Part shown: piece by piece, positions 3,300 through 27,917 of the stretch | Position numbering within the stretch: the first letter of the stretch is position 1 | How the letters are laid out: each line of letters opens with the position of its first letter | Origin: a virus | IMG/VR virus record: IMGVR_UViG_3300017786_001684 | Coordinates: 1 to 28,845 of that record | Reading direction: 5' to 3' (one strand) | DNA length: 28,845 nt | Made by a program: the position numbers and the translations under genes | Notes under the pieces: model-generated | Database searches by the model: none | What the model saw: only the letters and a program-made list of their open reading frames with translations | What the model was told of the DNA's origin: nothing

Positions 3300-5168
3300 G
3301 TGCCTTTACAAAAACTTTTATTTAAACCAGGAATAAATAAAGAAGGAACCGCTTATTCTAATGAGGGAGGGTGGTTTAATTCTAATTTAATTCGTTTCCG
3401 TAAAGGTTTACCAGAAAAAATAGGTGGTTGGGAAAAAGCATCCCCCAGCAGTTTTAAAGCATCAGGTAGAGCACTTCATGCATGGGTTGATTTAGAAGGA
3501 ACTAAGCTTTTAGGTTTAGGCACTACTTGGAAATACTATATATTAGACGGTTTAAGTTTTAATGACGTAACCCCTATTAGAGCTACTACAACCAACGGTA
3601 TTGTTTTTTCTGCTACTGACGGAAGTACAACTATAACAGCAACTGATGATGCTCATGGAGCTGTATTAAATGATTTTGTAACAATTAGCGGTGCCGTAAG
3701 TCTTGGCGGTAATATTACTGCTGCTGTATTAAATCAAGAACATCAAATCACATCAGTTACAACAGATACATTTACTTTTACAGCGACTGCAACAGCTAAT
3801 TCAAGCGATAGTGGTAACGGTGGTTCTGGTGCAGACGCAGCTTATCAAATAAATGTGGGGTTAGACGTGTATGTACCTTCAACAGGTTGGGGTTCTGATT
3901 TTTGGGGAGCAGGAGCTTGGGGAAGTGTTTCTGGTTTAGCAGCTACAAACCAATTACGTCTTTGGTCTCATGATAATTTTGGAGAAGATTTAATTATAAA
4001 TCCTAGAGGCTCGGGTGTTTTTTATTGGGATAAAACTAATGGAACAGAAACTAGAGCTGTAATTTTATCTTCTCTTACAGGAGCGAATCTAACCCCTACT
4101 AAAGCGTTACAAGTTATGGTGTCTGATGTAGATAGACACGTTATTTGTTTCGGAGCAGACCCTTTAAACGACGGAGGAACAGCTAGAACAGGTTCAATAG
4201 ACCCTATGTTTATAGCTTGGAGTGACCAAGAAAAAGTAGAAGAATGGGAACCACTTCCAACAAATACAGCAGGGTCGTTTAGACTTTCAGCAGGTTCAGC
4301 AATAGTAGGTGCAACACGAGCTCGACAAGAAACACTTATTTGGACAGATACTTCTTTATATTCTATGACTTTTGTGGGGCAACCTTTTACTTTTTCTATT
4401 AACTTAGTCAATGAAGGTGTGGGATTAGTAGGACCTAATGCTATGGTTAATACCCCTAAGGGCGTGTTTTGGATGGATAAAAAAGGTTTTTATCTTTATT
4501 CAGGACAAGTACAAGAGTTACCCTGTAGCGTAGATGCTTATGTTTTTGATGATTTAAATCAAACACAAAGTTATCAAATATTCGGTTTCGTTAATAAAGC
4601 TTTTAATGAAGTAGGTTGGTTTTATTGTTCTTCAGAAACAACGGTTATAGATAAATATGTTACGTATAACTATGAAGAAAATATATGGATGATAGGAGAC
4701 CTTTCTAGAACGTGTTGGTTAGACGAGGGTATTTTTCCAGACCCTAAAGCGACGTCTTCGTCTAGTAACGTCGGGTATTTATACAATCATGAATCTGGTG
4801 TAGACGACGACGGTTCTGCTATGACTAATGTTTTTATAGAATCTAGTGATTTTGATTTAGGAGAAGGAGACGCATATCAATTTATTAGTAAAGTTATTCC
4901 TGATATTAAATTTATAGGAAACGCTAGTACAGGAGCTAACGGGCAAACATTAGATATAGTTTTAAAAAGAAGAAATTTTCCAGGAGAAGAATTAACTACA
5001 GCAGTTACTAGTTCTTGTACTTCTGTTACAACTAAAGTAGATACAAGAATTAGAGGTAGGCAAGCAGTATTAAGACTTCAATCAAACGATACAGATACAT
5101 CAGTTATCGGTATGAGTTTTAGAGCAGGAGCAACCCGTATCGATATACAACCTGACGGTAAAAGATAA
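3300..5168 (+). CDS. Virion structural protein, probable tail nozzle/hub (gp10/gp12-like)
   Basis: The start is GTG with AGGAGA seven bases upstream. The 622-residue protein opens with a segment common in phage structural proteins (KPGINKEGTAYSNEGGWFNS, then IRFRKGLPEKIGGW). Its middle, residues ~290-440, carries blade-like strands (FIAWSDQEKVEEWEP, ETLIWTDTSLYSMTF, VFWMDKKGFYLYSGQVQELP) resembling the beta-propeller nozzle proteins of podoviruses such as P22 gp10 and T7 gp12. Residues ~85-170 look like an inserted Thr/Ala/Ser-rich beta domain. It is followed by a 1-base overlap with the next gene. Virion structural protein is well supported; the nozzle assignment is inference from fold-like features. 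Confidence 0.75.
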   Translation: MPLQKLLFKPGINKEGTAYSNEGGWFNSNLIRFRKGLPEKIGGWEKASPSSFKASGRALHAWVDLEGTKLLGLGTTWKYYILDGLSFNDVTPIRATTTNGIVFSATDGSTTITATDDAHGAVLNDFVTISGAVSLGGNITAAVLNQEHQITSVTTDTFTFTATATANSSDSGNGGSGADAAYQINVGLDVYVPSTGWGSDFWGAGAWGSVSGLAATNQLRLWSHDNFGEDLIINPRGSGVFYWDKTNGTETRAVILSSLTGANLTPTKALQVMVSDVDRHVICFGADPLNDGGTARTGSIDPMFIAWSDQEKVEEWEPLPTNTAGSFRLSAGSAIVGATRARQETLIWTDTSLYSMTFVGQPFTFSINLVNEGVGLVGPNAMVNTPKGVFWMDKKGFYLYSGQVQELPCSVDAYVFDDLNQTQSYQIFGFVNKAFNEVGWFYCSSETTVIDKYVTYNYEENIWMIGDLSRTCWLDEGIFPDPKATSSSSNVGYLYNHESGVDDDGSAMTNVFIESSDFDLGEGDAYQFISKVIPDIKFIGNASTGANGQTLDIVLKRRNFPGEELTTAVTSSCTSVTTKVDTRIRGRQAVLRLQSNDTDTSVIGMSFRAGATRIDIQPDGKR

Positions 5169-7002: not shown

Positions 7003-7353
7003 ATGGACTCCGTAGTAACTTTAATTAATGAAGTTGGTTTCCCAATAGCAGCAGCTATAGGTCTTGGTTTATTTATTTGGAAACTTATTAATAAAATTAT
7101 TGACGGCATGGAAACTAAAGTAGATGTACTAGACGAAAAAGTATCAGCACAAATAGCACAAATAGAAGAAAGATTAGGTCAAAAACTAGATTCACAACAC
7201 GGTATATTAGTAGCTCTTATAGATAGGGTACGTTCTGTAGATAACGAGATAATTAGACAAGATACTTTGTTAAAGACTATACTTGGTGTACCGCAACTTA
7301 TGAATACGGATAGAATAGCAAAAGCAGATAGAGACGACCAAAGGAAAGATTAA
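7003..7353 (+). CDS. Holin-like membrane protein with coiled coil
   Basis: 116 residues. One membrane helix at residues ~10-30 (EVGFPIAAAIGLGLFIWKLI) resembles YvrJ/BhlA-type small holin-related proteins. A long charged coiled coil follows (residues ~37-85) and a soluble, charged C-terminus. It lies between the nuclease and the curli-like genes and downstream of the lysozyme, where a holin is expected. Alternatively it is a membrane scaffold. The start was chosen as the first ATG after the nuclease stop; the next gene overlaps its TAA by one base. Confidence 0.75.
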   Translation: MDSVVTLINEVGFPIAAAIGLGLFIWKLINKIIDGMETKVDVLDEKVSAQIAQIEERLGQKLDSQHGILVALIDRVRSVDNEIIRQDTLLKTILGVPQLMNTDRIAKADRDDQRKD

Positions 7354-7549: not shown

Positions 7550-8050
7550 ATGAAAGAAACTGAAAAACAAAAAGAAGAAGCTGAAAAAATTTTAATAACT
7601 AAAATTATGGTAGTTATCGGAATTATGTTATTTGTAGGAATATTTTGTCAAAATCTTTGGTCTGACCAAATAGTACATAAATTTAAATCACCTAGTTTTA
7701 ATGGTATAGGTACATCGTCTCATTACTTAACTATAGAAAACCAAGAGTTTAGTCGTAAACTAACAATTAAAGAAGAAATTAAAGCCTTACAAGATGAAAT
7801 AGAAAGAGAAAAAGAAAACTCCACACTTGCTAGGTTTATGCGTAATCTTGAATCAAGAGTCTATGCTGAATTATCAAGACAACTAGTTAATAACCTCTTT
7901 GGAGAAACACCGCAAAGTTCGGGTACAATAACTTTAGAAGGCAACACCATTGAATATACAAGCGATGGAGTAACATTAACTTTAAAGATAACGGAACAAG
8001 ATGGGACAATTACCTCGATTACAATTCCTATTGGTACTTTTACTTTCTAG
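7550..8050 (+). CDS. csgF: CsgF-like curli secretion accessory protein
   Basis: 166 residues. After a charged N-terminus and a hydrophobic export segment (residues ~16-34), residues 41-66 read QIVHKFKSPSFNG...SSHYLTIENQE. This matches the F-[KR]-[NS]-P-x-F and following part of CsgF that inserts into the CsgG pore. Residues ~94-118 match the CsgF helix, and 126-162 match its C-terminal strands (TIEYTSDGVTLTLKITEQDG). An extra charged helix at residues ~70-93 (KLTIKEEIKALQDEIEREK) is absent from E. coli CsgF. In bacteria CsgF caps the CsgG channel at the cell surface and couples secretion to curlin nucleation. The csgG-like gene overlaps by 50 bases. The export segment could be a cleaved signal or an anchor. 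Confidence 0.85.
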   Translation: MKETEKQKEEAEKILITKIMVVIGIMLFVGIFCQNLWSDQIVHKFKSPSFNGIGTSSHYLTIENQEFSRKLTIKEEIKALQDEIEREKENSTLARFMRNLESRVYAELSRQLVNNLFGETPQSSGTITLEGNTIEYTSDGVTLTLKITEQDGTITSITIPIGTFTF

Positions 8051-8837
8051 TTGTTCTACTTTTGACCAATTTGAAGATACGTACGAACAGAGATATAAAG
8101 CACAAGACGTAGTTTCTATTCAAGAACTACAATCACCGTATTTGCGTGATGTAGCTGTTCCTGAAGTTAGTCCTGTAGTTGCTGTATATCCTGCTGCTTT
8201 TACAGACCAAACAGGACAAAGGAAAAGCAATAGTGAATTTGCACTATTTAGTACAGCTATAACACAACAACCAAATGCATTACTTATACGAGCTTTAAAA
8301 CACGCAGGTAATGGTCAATTTTTTAGAGTAGTTGAACGAGTAGGATTAGATAATTTAACTAAAGAAAGACAGCTTATACGTTCTGCAAGAGAACAAACAG
8401 CTAATGAAGAAGAGAAAAAGAAAGCACTAAGACCATTATTATTTGCTGGTATCTTAATAGAAGGAGCTGTTATATCTTACGAAGCTAATTTAGAATCTGG
8501 AGGTATTGGAGCTAGGTATCTTGGTATTGGTAATAGCATACAATATAGAGAAGATAATATTACTGTAAGTTTACGTATGGTTTCTGTAGCTACTGGTGAG
8601 ATTTTATTAGAAGTATTAAGTCAAAAAACTATATTTAGTTACGGTAAATCAGAAGATGTATTTAGATTTATAGAAGCAGGTACAGAACTAGTAGAAATAG
8701 AATTAGGTAATGCTAGAAACGAATCATCAACTATAGCATTAATGAAAGCGATTGAAGGTGGTGTATTAGAAATAATAAACCAAGGATATGAAAGAAATTT
8801 TTGGATTTTACAAAAAACAGAAAAGGAGGTAGAATGA
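8001..8837 (+). CDS. csgG: CsgG-like curli secretion channel lipoprotein
   Basis: 278 residues, close to E. coli CsgG (277). It has a lipoprotein signal with lipobox LSSC (C18). Family segments occur in order: VYPAAFTDQTGQ (~62-73), FSTAITQQPNALLIRALKHA (83-102), FFRVVERVGLDNLTKERQLI (107-126), ILIEGAVISYEANLESGG (151-168), ARYLGIGNSIQYREDNITVS (171-190) and VATGEILLEVLSQKTI. CsgG oligomers form the outer-membrane pore for curlin export. No frameshift or gap is visible. Its start lies inside csgF, so the whole signal peptide is encoded within the csgF 3' end. The constriction loop (residues 74-83) differs from E. coli: F83 is kept, but the residues matching Y51 and N55 are not. Confidence 0.92.
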   Translation: MGQLPRLQFLLVLLLSSCSTFDQFEDTYEQRYKAQDVVSIQELQSPYLRDVAVPEVSPVVAVYPAAFTDQTGQRKSNSEFALFSTAITQQPNALLIRALKHAGNGQFFRVVERVGLDNLTKERQLIRSAREQTANEEEKKKALRPLLFAGILIEGAVISYEANLESGGIGARYLGIGNSIQYREDNITVSLRMVSVATGEILLEVLSQKTIFSYGKSEDVFRFIEAGTELVEIELGNARNESSTIALMKAIEGGVLEIINQGYERNFWILQKTEKEVE

Positions 8838-9574
8838 TTGAGTTAATCATGAAAAAGTACATACTGTTATTATTGTGTGTTGTTTTATTACCGTTACAAG
8901 CGGCAGATAATGAAATATATGTAGACCAGTCAGGGACTGGAGCTAACATAGATTTAGAACAACTAGGCATATCAAATATTATAGGTGGTTTAAATTCTAC
9001 TGCAGGGTCTTTAACTGCTTTCGATTTAGACGGCACTACTATGACACTTGATATTAATATGATTGGTGCAACTAATAAATTCTTAGGTGATATAAACGCT
9101 GACACTTTTACAGGTTTATATAATTTTACTGGCGGTAGTAATAATTTCACTATACAAGTAGACCCAACTAATACTTATAGCTCAGATAATTCTGACCAAA
9201 ACGTAGCAGTTACAGGCAGTAGTAATACATTTACTTTAAATCAAGGTACTACAGCAATAGCAGCATCTCTTAATCTTGATTGGATTATTCAAGGTTCTAA
9301 TAACACAGTTACTTCTAATATCAATATTGATGGTGCTACAAACTATATGGATATAGATGGCAGTGATAATACAGTAAATTATACAGGTACTGGTGTTAAT
9401 GCTTCAGCAGGTGGATATTTTTGGCTAGACCATACAGGCGGACAAAGAACATTTAATATTCAACAACTGAGTACCCAAGACAATGACTGGCTTAAAATTA
9501 TATCTATTGGCGGTAATGCTTCTAGCACCGTTTGTGTTATCCAAAACGACCAAGGAACAAGCACAAGCTGTTGA
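8834..9574 (+). CDS. Curlin-like secreted repeat protein (candidate amyloid substrate)
   Basis: 246 residues from the ATG at 8834, which overlaps the csgG stop (ATGA) and follows AAGGAGG at 8823-8829. The N-terminus is a Sec signal peptide (KKYILLLLCVVLLPLQA, cut near A24). The mature start, YVDQSGTGANIDLEQLGISN, has the Q-x-G-x-x-x-N ... Q-x-G-x-x-N spacing of curlin repeats. At least six further weak repeats follow with a G-x-x-N turn and alternating beta residues (GATNKF, GGSNNFTI, GSSNTFTL, GSNNTVTS, GATNYMDI, GSDNTVNY). Two Cys lie near the end (CVIQNDQGTSTSC). It has few charged residues and is rich in Asn/Thr/Gly/Ser. It is the probable cargo of the adjacent CsgG/CsgF pair; identity as curlin is inferred. 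Confidence 0.72.
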   Translation: MIELIMKKYILLLLCVVLLPLQAADNEIYVDQSGTGANIDLEQLGISNIIGGLNSTAGSLTAFDLDGTTMTLDINMIGATNKFLGDINADTFTGLYNFTGGSNNFTIQVDPTNTYSSDNSDQNVAVTGSSNTFTLNQGTTAIAASLNLDWIIQGSNNTVTSNINIDGATNYMDIDGSDNTVNYTGTGVNASAGGYFWLDHTGGQRTFNIQQLSTQDNDWLKIISIGGNASSTVCVIQNDQGTSTSC

Positions 9575-10601
9575 TATAGGCGATATATCTGAACTAAACG
9601 GTTCAGCACAAATAGTAAGAGATAAACCTTACGATGCTAATTTACAATTTGCTATCCAAAGCAATGACGAAGCTATTACTACTAATGGTAGAATGGCTAT
9701 CACTTTTTTAGATGATTCTACAGTAAAACTTACCGAACATTCACAACTTCTTATAGACGAATATATTTACGACCCCGACCCTAGTAAAGCTAAAATGGCA
9801 CTTACGTTTGGGTTAGGAACAGCTAGGTTTATTACAGGCAACTTAAATAAAATAGATAAACAAAATATATCTCTTAAAACTCCGACAGCCAACATTGCCA
9901 TTCGTGGCACAGATTTCACAGCGACGGTTGATGAATTAGGACGTTCACTTATTATTTTACTCCCCGACCCTTTTGGTTTATCTAGCGGAGAAATAGAAGT
10001 AGTTACTGCTATGGGAACTGTTTTATTAAATAAACCATATGAAGCAACTACGGTAAGCGTGTTTGAGTCAGCACCAACTAAACCCGTTATTTTAGATTTA
10101 ACTTTAGATGTAATAGATAATATGTTGATTGTTACACCTCCTAAAGAAGAAGCCGTTATAGAAGAAGAGGCTACAAGTACAAAAACAGAAAATGTTTTAG
10201 ATTTTAATGATTTAGATATAGATTACTTAGCAGAAGATTATTTAAAAGAAGATAGTTTAGGATTTACTGAACTCGATATAAATTATCTTGATGTAAATTA
10301 TTTAGAAGATTTGTTAAATGTACTAGATGCACTAGCCGTAGCTGAGGACGAAGACCAATTAGCACAAGCTACTAGTACACAAATATCAGGAACATCTTTA
10401 GGTAAAGACCCTGAAACACAAATAACAGCTTTAATTACAGGTAACGTAGTTAGTTTACGAAGACAAGTAAACGAAAGCGTTAGGGTTGATTTAGACGGTA
10501 GTAATGCTTATACAGTAATTTTGATACAAGACGGTGTTTCTAATATAATTAAAATTAACGGAGGAAGTGATAGTGTAATTACAATTACACAAAGTGATTA
10601 A
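9483..10601 (+). CDS. Exported FecR-domain protein with curlin-like C-terminal repeat
   Basis: 372 residues. Signal peptide at residues 1-20 (KLYLLAVMLLAPFVLS), which fixes the start even though it lies 92 bases inside the curlin-like gene. Residues ~34-160 form a FecR domain, with DISELNGSAQIVRD, AITTNGRMAITFLDDSTVKL and ANIAIRGTDFTATVDELG. Residues ~235-295 are very acidic with DIDYLAEDYL/DINYLDVNYLEDLL repeats. Residues 335-372 (DGSNAYTVILIQDGVSNIIK onward) carry the Q-x-G-x-x-N and I-x-I-x-Q pattern of a curlin repeat. FecR domains are periplasmic signal or scaffold modules, often next to CHASE2 cyclases. Without the TonB receptor or sigma factor, a role in transport regulation is unlikely. 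It may anchor or nucleate the fibre, or report on it to the cyclase. Confidence 0.82.
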   Translation: MTGLKLYLLAVMLLAPFVLSKTTKEQAQAVDIGDISELNGSAQIVRDKPYDANLQFAIQSNDEAITTNGRMAITFLDDSTVKLTEHSQLLIDEYIYDPDPSKAKMALTFGLGTARFITGNLNKIDKQNISLKTPTANIAIRGTDFTATVDELGRSLIILLPDPFGLSSGEIEVVTAMGTVLLNKPYEATTVSVFESAPTKPVILDLTLDVIDNMLIVTPPKEEAVIEEEATSTKTENVLDFNDLDIDYLAEDYLKEDSLGFTELDINYLDVNYLEDLLNVLDALAVAEDEDQLAQATSTQISGTSLGKDPETQITALITGNVVSLRRQVNESVRVDLDGSNAYTVILIQDGVSNIIKINGGSDSVITITQSD

Positions 10602-12334
10602 TGAAAAAATTTATATTTATATTACTGCCTTTATTAGTATTACCTTTATTATTTCAAACCACGCCGACAGAAATAATAAAACTAAAAACTTTTGATAAAT
10701 TAATAAAGAAACAAGAACCTAGTGGTAATTTTGTTATATTAAATATAACAGAAGATGATGTAGAACGTGAAGGCGGTTATCCTTTACCTAGAAAAAGATT
10801 AGCAGATATACAAATGGAGATTCTTGGCAAAGGAGCTCTTGGAGTTGGTTGGGTTATATCATTTCCACAAGCAGACAGACTTATGGGGGACGAAGATTTT
10901 TCTAGGTCTTTAGGTTATGCTCCTAGTGTAATAGCTACGTTCGAAGACGGTAATAAAAATTATCCTAAAACAACAGGTACCGTTATTAAAGGTCCCGATG
11001 TTGGTGGTTTATTTTCTACAGGAGTTAAACAAAATTTTTATCTTTACGATGATATAGCACAAGGAGTTGCTATAGCCCCAGTTGAAGTAGACCAACTTGT
11101 TAGGCGTATTCCTCTATTATTAAAAACGCCTGACGGTTGGGCTCCTTCTTTCGGAGTTCATGTTTTAAAAAATTTAACAAATGCTCGTACGTATATTATT
11201 ACTACTAACGATAACGGCGTACAAGAAATAGCTGTTAGAGGTATATCGCCAGTAAAAACAGATAGTCTTGGTCGTAAGTGGATTAGTTGGGTAGAAACAG
11301 AAGAAACAAACTTACAAGAAATGGATGTAAACGGCAGGTTTGTATTTGTTGGAGTTACGGCTAATGGTGTGATGCCGCAAATCGCTACACCTGTTGGATT
11401 ACTTGAACCACATAAAATTCAAGCAGCATTAGCAGAATCAATACTTATACAAAATAGTCCTTATATTCCTGATTACGCTTTAGCCTTAGAACTTTTAATA
11501 TTTATAACGTCTGTAGGGCTTATCTGGGCGTTTATAAGCTATTTAGGAATAACTTGGGGAATAAGTCTAGGATTAATAACTATAGCCTTAACGGGCTTAT
11601 ACGGGGTTTATACGATAGGTACAGGAGTTTTAATAGATGTAACTTGGTCTTTAATCTCTCAGTTTATTACAGGTAGTGTAGCTTTTTATCTAAGGTTTAG
11701 AGAACAATGGAGATTAAGAGAACAAGTAAAGAAACAGTTTGAACATTATTTAGACCCTAGACAAGTTAAACGTTTACAAAAAGACCCTGATTTATTAAAA
11801 CTAGGTGGAGAAAAAAGACGTTGTACTTTTTTATTTACAGACGTAAGAGGTTTTACTGCTTTATCAGAAACGTTACCTCCAGAAGAAGTAACAACTATAA
11901 TGAATAAAGCATTAACAATACAATCAGATACAGTTAAAAAGTATGACGGTATGGTAGATAAATATATTGGTGATGCAATGATGGCAATATTTAACGCACC
12001 TATGGATTTACAACATCATGAACAATTAGCCGTAGAATGTGCTAAAGAAATACAACAAACTATAATAGATGCAGAAATAGGAGTTGAGATTGGTGTAGGC
12101 GTAAATACAGGTGAAGCTGTTATTGGTAATATGGGAAGCGATACAAGGTTTGATTATAGTGCTATAGGGGACGCAGTAAATACAGCCGCTAGGTTAGAAT
12201 CAGCTACTAAAGAAGCGGGTGTAAATATCCTTATAGGCGAAGAAACAGAAAAATATTGTGGTATTCCTTTAAAACAATTAAAACCAATAAAAGTAAAAGG
12301 TAAAGAAAAAGCTTTAAAAATATATACTTTTTGA
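10601..12334 (+). CDS. CHASE2-domain membrane adenylate cyclase (class III)
   Basis: 577 residues. The order is: N-terminal membrane helix (residues 4-19), periplasmic CHASE2 sensor (~25-290), three membrane helices (~295-312, 320-341, 344-365), a helical linker, and a class III nucleotidyl cyclase domain (~400-577). Catalytic residues look complete: metal ligands D414 (FTDVRGF) and D458 (KYIGD), adenine-selecting K454 and D518 (RFDYS), and transition-state N527 and R531 (DAVNTAARLES). K plus D at the selecting positions favours ATP, so cAMP is the expected product. The gene starts in the fecR stop (TAATG). Such cyclases are common in bacteria but unexpected in a phage. The stimulus sensed by CHASE2 is unknown; the FecR or curlin protein is a candidate. 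Confidence 0.93.
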   Translation: MKKFIFILLPLLVLPLLFQTTPTEIIKLKTFDKLIKKQEPSGNFVILNITEDDVEREGGYPLPRKRLADIQMEILGKGALGVGWVISFPQADRLMGDEDFSRSLGYAPSVIATFEDGNKNYPKTTGTVIKGPDVGGLFSTGVKQNFYLYDDIAQGVAIAPVEVDQLVRRIPLLLKTPDGWAPSFGVHVLKNLTNARTYIITTNDNGVQEIAVRGISPVKTDSLGRKWISWVETEETNLQEMDVNGRFVFVGVTANGVMPQIATPVGLLEPHKIQAALAESILIQNSPYIPDYALALELLIFITSVGLIWAFISYLGITWGISLGLITIALTGLYGVYTIGTGVLIDVTWSLISQFITGSVAFYLRFREQWRLREQVKKQFEHYLDPRQVKRLQKDPDLLKLGGEKRRCTFLFTDVRGFTALSETLPPEEVTTIMNKALTIQSDTVKKYDGMVDKYIGDAMMAIFNAPMDLQHHEQLAVECAKEIQQTIIDAEIGVEIGVGVNTGEAVIGNMGSDTRFDYSAIGDAVNTAARLESATKEAGVNILIGEETEKYCGIPLKQLKPIKVKGKEKALKIYTF

Positions 12335-25815: not shown

Positions 25816-27339
25816 ATGCCGTTAGCAGGGGAGTTTGCTGTACGTTATGCGGGGCTACGTCAAGCGTACGGAACTTTCACAGCTAGTAATGAAACTAGAG
25901 AAGATGGAAAGGCAAGTGGTAAAAACATCACTATATCAAAGGAGTTGTCTGACAACGATTTGTTAAAGTTATGGGAAAACCATTTGTCTGGTCATCAAAG
26001 TGTAGGAATCGTACCTATAGATGAACATAATAATTGTGTATGGGGTGCTATAGACGTTGATGAGTATCAGCTAGATTTAAAAGATTTAGCTATTAAGATA
26101 GCCAAGCAAAAACTACCATTAGTTTTATGCCGTAGTAAAAGTGGCGGTGCTCATATTTATATATTCCTTAATGAACCAGTAGCAGCATCTATGCTACAAA
26201 GAAAACTAAGACAGATAGCAGCAGCAATAGGATACGGACAAGCAGAGATATTCCCTAAACAAACACAGTTATTATTAGAACGTGGAGATAGAGGCAGCAC
26301 GTTAAATATGCCCTACTTTGGTGGAGAGAACTCTACTAGGTATGCTTACGGTACGGATGGAGCAGCATTAACTCCAGAAGAATTTTTAGAGCATACAAAA
26401 AACATTGAATTAAAACCTAGTGAATTAGAAAGATTAGAAGCTAGTCCATTAACCGAAACTATGGACTGGTTAGACCAAGCACCCCCGTGTATACAACACT
26501 TAGTAGTACAGGGCTTCCCTAAGGGCTCAAGAAACTCTGGCTTGTTTAACGTGGGGGTCTTCTTAAGAAAAAAGTTTGCAGATGATTGGGAAAAAAGATT
26601 AGAGGATATAAATATAAAATATATGCAACCTCCCTTAGGTGCACAAGAAGTTTTAACAGTAGCTAAACAATTACAAAGAAAAGATTATTTTTATAAATGT
26701 AATGACCAACCTATAGCTAGTCATTGTAATAGTCCTTTATGTAGAACACGTAAATTTGGTATAGGTGCTAACGGTGGTACACCCTTATTTAGTAACCTTA
26801 CAAAACAGGATAGTGACCCACCTATATGGTTTTTAGATGTAGAAGGTGGTAGACTAGAGTTAGAGACAGATGATTTATTAAACCAAAACAGGTTTCAGCG
26901 TAAGTGTATGGATGCGTTAAATAAAATACCACCAAAAGTAAAAGAAAACGTATGGAGACAGATAATACAACAGCTACTCGATGCGTTAACCGTTGTAGAA
27001 GTACCTAAAGAAAGTTCTACCGAAGGACATTTTATGGAGTTATTAGAAGCTTTCTGTACAGAAAGACCTGCTAGAGAAAGAGATGAATTACTATTACATA
27101 AACCGTGGACAGATAATGGTAAAACGTATTTTAGATTATTAGATTTAATGGATTACTTACACAGGAATAATTTTAAAGAATACCAAAGAAACAGATTAAC
27201 TTCTAAATTAAAACAATTACACGGTGAGCCTTTCTTTTTTAATATAAAAGGCAAAGGAGTAAACGTTTGGTTTATAGAAGAATTTAAAGCACAAGACGAA
27301 CCACATGACTTACCAGACTTTAACGATAATTTATTATGA
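25816..27339 (+). CDS. AEP-superfamily (TOTE-type) DNA primase
   Basis: 507 residues, AAAGGAGAT upstream of the ATG. The N-terminal ~200 residues form an archaeo-eukaryotic primase domain: catalytic DxD at D80/D82 (WGAIDVDEY), the CRSKSGGAHIYIF motif with H113, and AEIFPKQTQL with E144. The next part has four Cys (C225 in APPCIQHL, C295, C304, C309 in YKCNDQPIASHCNSPLCRTR), a spacing that could bind Zn or an Fe-S cluster as in the large primase subunit. The C-terminal ~180 residues are helical. It should make primers for phage DNA replication, or act as a primase-polymerase. The next gene starts in its stop (ATGA). Confidence 0.85.
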   Translation: MPLAGEFAVRYAGLRQAYGTFTASNETREDGKASGKNITISKELSDNDLLKLWENHLSGHQSVGIVPIDEHNNCVWGAIDVDEYQLDLKDLAIKIAKQKLPLVLCRSKSGGAHIYIFLNEPVAASMLQRKLRQIAAAIGYGQAEIFPKQTQLLLERGDRGSTLNMPYFGGENSTRYAYGTDGAALTPEEFLEHTKNIELKPSELERLEASPLTETMDWLDQAPPCIQHLVVQGFPKGSRNSGLFNVGVFLRKKFADDWEKRLEDINIKYMQPPLGAQEVLTVAKQLQRKDYFYKCNDQPIASHCNSPLCRTRKFGIGANGGTPLFSNLTKQDSDPPIWFLDVEGGRLELETDDLLNQNRFQRKCMDALNKIPPKVKENVWRQIIQQLLDALTVVEVPKESSTEGHFMELLEAFCTERPARERDELLLHKPWTDNGKTYFRLLDLMDYLHRNNFKEYQRNRLTSKLKQLHGEPFFFNIKGKGVNVWFIEEFKAQDEPHDLPDFNDNLL

Positions 27340-27917
27340 TTAAATATATACCTAAATATTTCCAACACTGTAACGCTAATATACAAACATGGGACAAACC
27401 TTCAGAAAGAGTTTTTGATGGTAAAACAGTCAAAGGCAGACCTACAAGAGGGTTTGGCAGTTCTTCGTTTGATTATGCAGGTAAGTTATACAAACCTAGT
27501 CCTTGGTCTAAAACAATGTATGTTTTTAAACAAGATGTAGAAAAATTAGTCTGGGAAGAATTAGGAATAGATAAACAATTTACTTTTTGTTTATGCGGAT
27601 TTTACGGAACTGACGGTAAAGGTATACCTCATCATTCAGACACAGTCCCGACAGAAGATGATTTAGTTGTGTCTATTTCTTTAGGAGCACCAAGAATATT
27701 TATACAAAAAACATATCAAAACCATGTTAAAAAACACACTAAAACAAGCGAAACATTTTTGAAAGAAAACTTTGTTATAGACGAAACACATTATTTATTA
27801 GAAGATGGAGACGTGCTTATTTTCGATGGAAAAAATCAAATGTATTCTACTCATTGTGTACCTGATTTACAAAACGCAGGTGAAAGAATTAATCTAACTT
27901 TTAGAAGTGGTTTATGA
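27336..27917 (+). CDS. alkB: AlkB-like 2OG-Fe(II) dioxygenase (nucleic acid demethylase)
   Basis: 193 residues. Metal ligands H100 and D102 (PHHSD) and H173 (THCVP), 2OG ligand R184, and the AlkB signature R-I-N-L-T-F-R with R190 are all present. The LCGFYGTDGKGIPHHSD segment resembles ALKBH2/3-type proteins. Such enzymes remove alkyl groups (1-methyladenine, 3-methylcytosine) from DNA or RNA by oxidation. In phages it may protect the genome against methylation damage, or act on modified RNA. It overlaps the primase by four bases and the helicase by four bases, all within a replication cluster. The gene is full length. Confidence 0.88.
   Translation: MIKYIPKYFQHCNANIQTWDKPSERVFDGKTVKGRPTRGFGSSSFDYAGKLYKPSPWSKTMYVFKQDVEKLVWEELGIDKQFTFCLCGFYGTDGKGIPHHSDTVPTEDDLVVSISLGAPRIFIQKTYQNHVKKHTKTSETFLKENFVIDETHYLLEDGDVLIFDGKNQMYSTHCVPDLQNAGERINLTFRSGL

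Follow-up and report, generated by a model that had tools for sequence, protein, structure and literature searches.

The presence of a gene directly downstream of the curli pore gene csgG in a viral DNA raises the question of whether the phage also brings its own curlin, and of what role the genes that follow it might have. We studied this question in IMG/VR record IMGVR_UViG_3300017786_001684, which was analysed whole (28,845 bases, hereafter the window) and may correspond to a genome fragment. The first-pass annotation had proposed the open reading frame at 8834-9574 as a candidate phage curlin. This proposal is supported by the first repeat of the protein, by its full-length homology to annotated phage curlins, by a beta-solenoid model and by the csgF-csgG-curlin gene order, and we consider it probable that the product of 8834-9574 is the only curlin subunit of a type VIII (curli) secretion module carried by the phage, and that it belongs to the degenerate class.

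The window has a G+C content of 34.6% and carries phage tail, lysozyme, nuclease, SNF2-type helicase, primase-like and UvrD-like helicase genes. The virion protein encoded at 3300-5168 is about 36% identical to HTVC023P and other podophage sequences, which makes a marine podophage the likely source of the record. Two proteins of the 2OG-Fe(II) oxygenase family, reported to be expanded in pelagiphages, are encoded at 2011-2715 and 27336-27917, and the primase-like protein at 25816-27339 resembles the archaeo-eukaryotic primase domain of TOTE conflict systems (Pfam PF22548, E 1e-12).

Organization of the phage curli module

Analysis of the region around the candidate gene revealed a gene for a small membrane/coiled-coil protein followed, in this order, by csgF, csgG, the curlin gene, fecR and the CHASE2 cyclase gene, confirming the location of the curlin gene after csgG and before fecR. 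The features are as follows:

7003..7353, + strand: small protein of 116 aa comprising a membrane helix at the N-terminus and a coiled coil, upstream of csgF
7550..8050, + strand: csgF, extracellular cap/chaperone of the curli pore (Pfam PF10614, E 9e-15, above cut-off)
8001..8837, + strand: csgG, outer-membrane curli secretion pore (Pfam PF03783, E 7.5e-46, above cut-off)
8834..9574, + strand: probable degenerate curlin subunit, CsgA/B-like (signal peptide 8834-8902, mature predicted solenoid 8903-9571, Cys234 and Cys246)
8903..8980, + strand: single canonical curlin repeat, residues 24-49, with a spacing of eleven residues from Q32 to Q43 (partial PF07012 match; cellular repeat profile)
9483..10601, + strand: FecR-domain protein (PF04773, E 9e-10), with a C-terminal curlin-like beta tail at about 10422-10598
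10601..12334, + strand: membrane protein with a CHASE2 domain and an adenylate/guanylate cyclase (PF05226, E 1e-21; PF00211, E 1e-20)

Such a module is not new. The order csgF-csgG-csgA/B-fecR-adenylate cyclase, with a small gene before csgF, was described in 2022 in the Podoviridae pelagiphage T8SS module of marine podophages, according to the available text of PMC9599517, and the corresponding gene of HTVC008M was already annotated as curlin. In that text the small upstream gene is called a histidine kinase (HK) and FecR an iron regulator. A Pfam search revealed no kinase domain in the 7003-7353 product, which showed a weak PHROG holin match (E 1e-4). Since this gene, of which related loci have one or two copies ahead of csgF, has the position and copy number of the published HK, the latter is probably a small membrane/coiled-coil protein of the same type, a point apparently undescribed.

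The curlin frame is open over 246 aa, with a mature part of 223 residues. Its ATG overlaps the csgG stop codon as ATGA and is preceded, 4 nt upstream, by GGAGG. By sequence inspection, a Sec-like signal peptide (MKKYILLLLCVVLLPLQA) lies ahead of ADNEIY, and CsgG bears a lipoprotein signal with lipobox LLSSC. The mature N-terminus contains Q32-S-G-T-G-A-N38 followed by Q43-L-G-I-S-N48, in agreement with the Q-x-G-x-x-x-N ... Q-x-G-x-x-N curlin spacing first noticed there, and a profile of 34-residue cellular curlin repeats scored residues 25-50 at 17.8 bits (best shuffle, 4.5). The weaker G-x-x-N repeats said to follow were also found: the protein has 11 GxxN motifs against a mean of 3.2 after shuffling, a number reached in 0 of 20,000 shuffles, and four hxh..GxxN.hxh strand-turn-strand units against a shuffle mean of 0.06 (p 5e-5). 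Only the Q32/Q43 repeat combines the Q-x10-Q distance with the QxGxxN kernel, and the about six remaining repeats are degenerate and individually weak. The Pfam curlin model PF07012 gave one match of 14.3 bits, below a gathering cut-off (20.7) that is a detection threshold rather than a biological criterion, and when the protein was scanned directly against Pfam and PHROG, only chance matches were obtained. Over 33 diverse relatives, the only invariant glutamines are Q9, Q20, Q188 and Q214 (mature numbering); at position 53, 97% of these relatives have Q and the 8834-9574 protein has M. The Gln ladder has therefore been mostly lost, as the first-pass annotation had indicated. Purifying selection acts on the gene (pN/pS about 0.27).

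Relatives and predicted structure of the curlin

Relatives of the curlin are common among marine viral contigs. We found tblastn-confirmed relatives in at least 600 viral stretches, the best 80 being 82-93% identical, and searches with more distant members confirmed 592, 14 and 188 viral stretches in partly overlapping sets, so that each of two scans yielded at least 592-600. The protein aligned end to end, with 29-31% identity, with its homologs at the same position in HTVC008M (AGE60350.1, annotated as "curlin minor subunit CsgB") and Melnitz (QZI94830.1, "curlin associated repeat protein"), and the Melnitz full-length homolog scored above the PF07012 cut-off (25.4 bits in frame). The Melnitz GenBank record annotates two curlin-repeat proteins (L083:4947-5666 and L083:6725-7741), both above the PF07012 cut-off, at odds with the statement, in the available text of PMC9004378, that this phage is without csgA/csgB.

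The order of the module is kept across related loci. Conservation of the curlin matches that of csgG and csgF, and it lies beside both in every locus examined, in a set retrieved through the curlin gene and hence with module-completeness counts biased towards curlin presence. In several loci of cellular Alphaproteobacteria the order is csgF-csgG-curlin-curlin, as in the phage csgF-csgG-curlin arrangement, and phage-built profiles recognized no FecR or cyclase genes in the cellular curli loci examined. Seven contigs from bacterial MAGs were considered as cellular CsgG ancestors and rejected, given their phage gene order and, in some of them, other proteins like those of the phage window. These contigs (L085-L091), from MAGs labelled Maricaulis, Neomarinimicrobiota, Flavobacteriaceae, Rhodobacteraceae and Pelagibacter, are probably phage contigs binned with cells. 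A 1,499-base "Salmonella phage" record (OR851715.1, hit H25) encodes a CsgG-like protein with 45.8% identity, probably from host DNA or contamination.

The AlphaFold2 model of the curlin is an all-beta stack over its whole length (pLDDT 85.3, pTM 0.85), in which several repeats, most of them degenerate, are stacked as a beta-solenoid; a globular fold devoid of stacked repeats, which would have spoken against the first-pass proposal, was not predicted. A search of BFVD gave three matches with E below 0.001: two phage proteins bearing the name "Curlin associated" (TM 0.77-0.80) and a third one nameless. Foldseek against the PDB gave no significant match with this model, and a structural aligner revealed general beta-helix similarity only. 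The model superposes at an rmsd near 3 Angstrom on right-handed beta-helices such as SufD, and at 9-11 Angstrom on left-handed ones, the handedness of SufD and the other compared helices being assumed from general knowledge. The model is thus probably right-handed, but it was built from only 33 sequences, a depth at which handedness is unreliable: sparse alignments often yield spurious right-handed curlin models, whereas deep alignments and cryo-EM give left-handed solenoids (PMC10192328).

The protein fits the degenerate (D) curlin class defined in that study, whose degenerate-repeat members count as curlins and are still packed as solenoids. It shares with degenerate CsgA the incomplete motifs a/b, the insertions and the predicted beta-solenoid, and may differ in handedness: the published AF2 models are left-handed and ours, from 33 sequences only and hence not decisive, superposes on right-handed helices. 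With E. coli CsgA/CsgB it shares a signal peptide, the QxGxxN repeat kernel and, by analogy, export by CsgG with CsgF. On the other hand, the E. coli proteins have five canonical repeats versus one here, and the phage protein has a terminal Cys pair and no N22-like Gly-rich leader, in a module with neither csgE nor csgC.

The cysteine pair and the FecR tail

The two cysteines near the C-terminus had been regarded as unusual for a curlin. This holds for cellular curlins, where 1 of 36 sampled ORFs ends in a Cys pair, and does not hold for phage modules, where the terminal pair is the rule: C234 and C246 are present in all of the 82 closest loci. Synonymous rates in the curlin/fecR overlap are only slightly reduced, indicating that gene overlap alone does not explain the conservation of the cysteines. 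Among 265 loci, two module types were defined by the terminal Cys pair itself, and for this reason the informative parts of the division are the association with a second curlin and the frequency of the pair in it. In type P (podophage-type, 163 loci, including 8834-9574) the curlin ends in the pair, and the inspected gaps separating fecR from the cyclase contained no true second curlin. Type M (myophage-like, 98 loci) has a first curlin with no terminal pair and with another, internal one; a second curlin was found after fecR and ahead of the cyclase in 49 loci, and it bears the terminal pair in 49 of 49. HTVC008M and Melnitz follow the latter pattern, with a first curlin devoid of the pair and a second one bearing it after fecR. 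The invariant pair would probably form a disulfide closing or capping the last rung of the solenoid.

The signal peptide of FecR is encoded inside the 92-nt overlap with the curlin 3′ end, and the position of its start ATG is shared by 80 of 82 loci. The structural model of this protein comprises a FecR domain, whose fold matches PupR and anti-sigma factors, an acidic linker (residues 184-266) of low confidence or disordered, and six short strands at the C-terminus (pLDDT about 61-78). The final segment ends in [IVL]x[IVL]xQ in 236 of 237 complete copies. Q318, G329, I335, I337 and Q339 are invariant over 29 diverse copies, the invariance of the last three being partly due to selection of these copies for that ending. 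When the tail was compared with curlin repeats, single-sequence profile scoring against cellular repeats was not significant, and profile-profile comparison outscored 200 of 200 column shuffles with a low match probability (13%). Given this weak profile scoring, we name the tail curlin-like, not curlin.

Apart from the FecR domain itself, the features expected of an iron-signalling FecR regulator were not found: the protein starts with a signal peptide, no anti-sigma part precedes its FecR domain, and no sigma factor was recognized among the genes neighbouring fecR. FecR-domain matches occurred in 140 of 385 alphaproteobacterial genomes; among the matches listed, only two span the whole protein including the tail, both in phage-like contigs of one MAG, and many of the top cellular FecR domains belong to long, secreted-looking proteins. 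An envelope or surface role would fit these observations better than iron regulation. The exported protein, through its curlin-like tail, would probably bind or template curlin in the envelope, and it may report this event to the CHASE2 cyclase. The full proposal, that FecR is a fibre partner whose tail co-assembles with or nucleates curlin and whose FecR domain relays the state of fibre or pore to the cyclase, is put forward tentatively, as a doubtful alternative to the iron regulator. If true, the phage would build and sense fibres in one self-contained unit.

The curlin-like beta tail of FecR, the location of its signal peptide inside the csgA 3′ end and the presence of the Cys pair on the single podophage-type curlin versus the second myophage-type curlin are apparently undescribed. 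The available text of PMC9599517 contains no mention of the tail, the Cys pair or the gene overlap, and no description of the tail or of the Cys-pair partition was found in the available text of this article, PMC7029224 and PMC9004378, which is not proof of absence from the literature. These two traits are the parts worth following.

Possible roles of the curlin in phage infection

Following the known curli pathway, the curlin would cross the inner membrane by Sec during infection and exit unfolded through the CsgG pore capped by CsgF; outside, it would fold into a solenoid and stack into fibres on the infected cell. Against the curlin assignment, curlin profiles recognized a single repeat, below the Pfam cut-off, the Gln ladder is mostly lost, the model looks right-handed, unlike solved curli, and has no significant PDB match, and according to the available text of PMC9004378 no clumping was observed in Melnitz-infected cultures. 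A curlin-derived secreted surface protein that is not amyloid, namely a stable monomeric beta-solenoid acting as adhesin or receptor mask after export by the phage CsgG, would be compatible with the loss of most of the Gln/Asn ladder, the insertions between rungs, the disulfide-capable C-terminus of every type P relative and a general beta-helix likeness to solenoid adhesins and enzymes. We consider this rather unlikely, since the canonical amyloid kernel is still present in the first repeat, where Q9 and Q20 are invariant, proteins with degenerate repeats are solenoid-packing curlins in PMC10192328, and FecR bears a similar beta tail.

The probability is much lower for a role of the pore as the functional part, in uptake or lysis timing as put forward in PMC9004378, with the curlin as passenger or channel plug. 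The host clades lack curli genes, a pinholin-like role of phage CsgGF was proposed in the available text of PMC9004378, and a weakly holin-like protein precedes csgF; however, the curlin is as conserved as the two pore genes and accompanies them in every locus examined, a count biased by the use of the curlin to find these loci. It is very improbable that 8834-9574 encodes a virion tail or fibre beta-helix merely resembling curlin. Beta-helices are frequent in phage tail proteins, right-handed tailspikes appear among the fold matches, and lysis and tail genes are near the module, but a signal peptide and overlap coupling to csgG argue against this role, as do the occurrence of csgF-csgG-curlin-fecR as a unit in contigs of podophage and myophage type alike and the curlin annotation of the top viral fold matches.

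Ocean viromes are rich in phage curli modules, the hosts of these phages lack curli, and sibling capture, superinfection exclusion, uptake and lysis timing have been discussed as their purpose in the available text of PMC7029224, PMC9599517 and PMC9004378. A degenerate curlin subunit at this position, if true, would favour the production of fibres over a bare pore. The FecR tail provides a structural hint as to why FecR and the cyclase, a pair not found beside curli genes in the sampled cellular operons, accompany the curli genes of phages.
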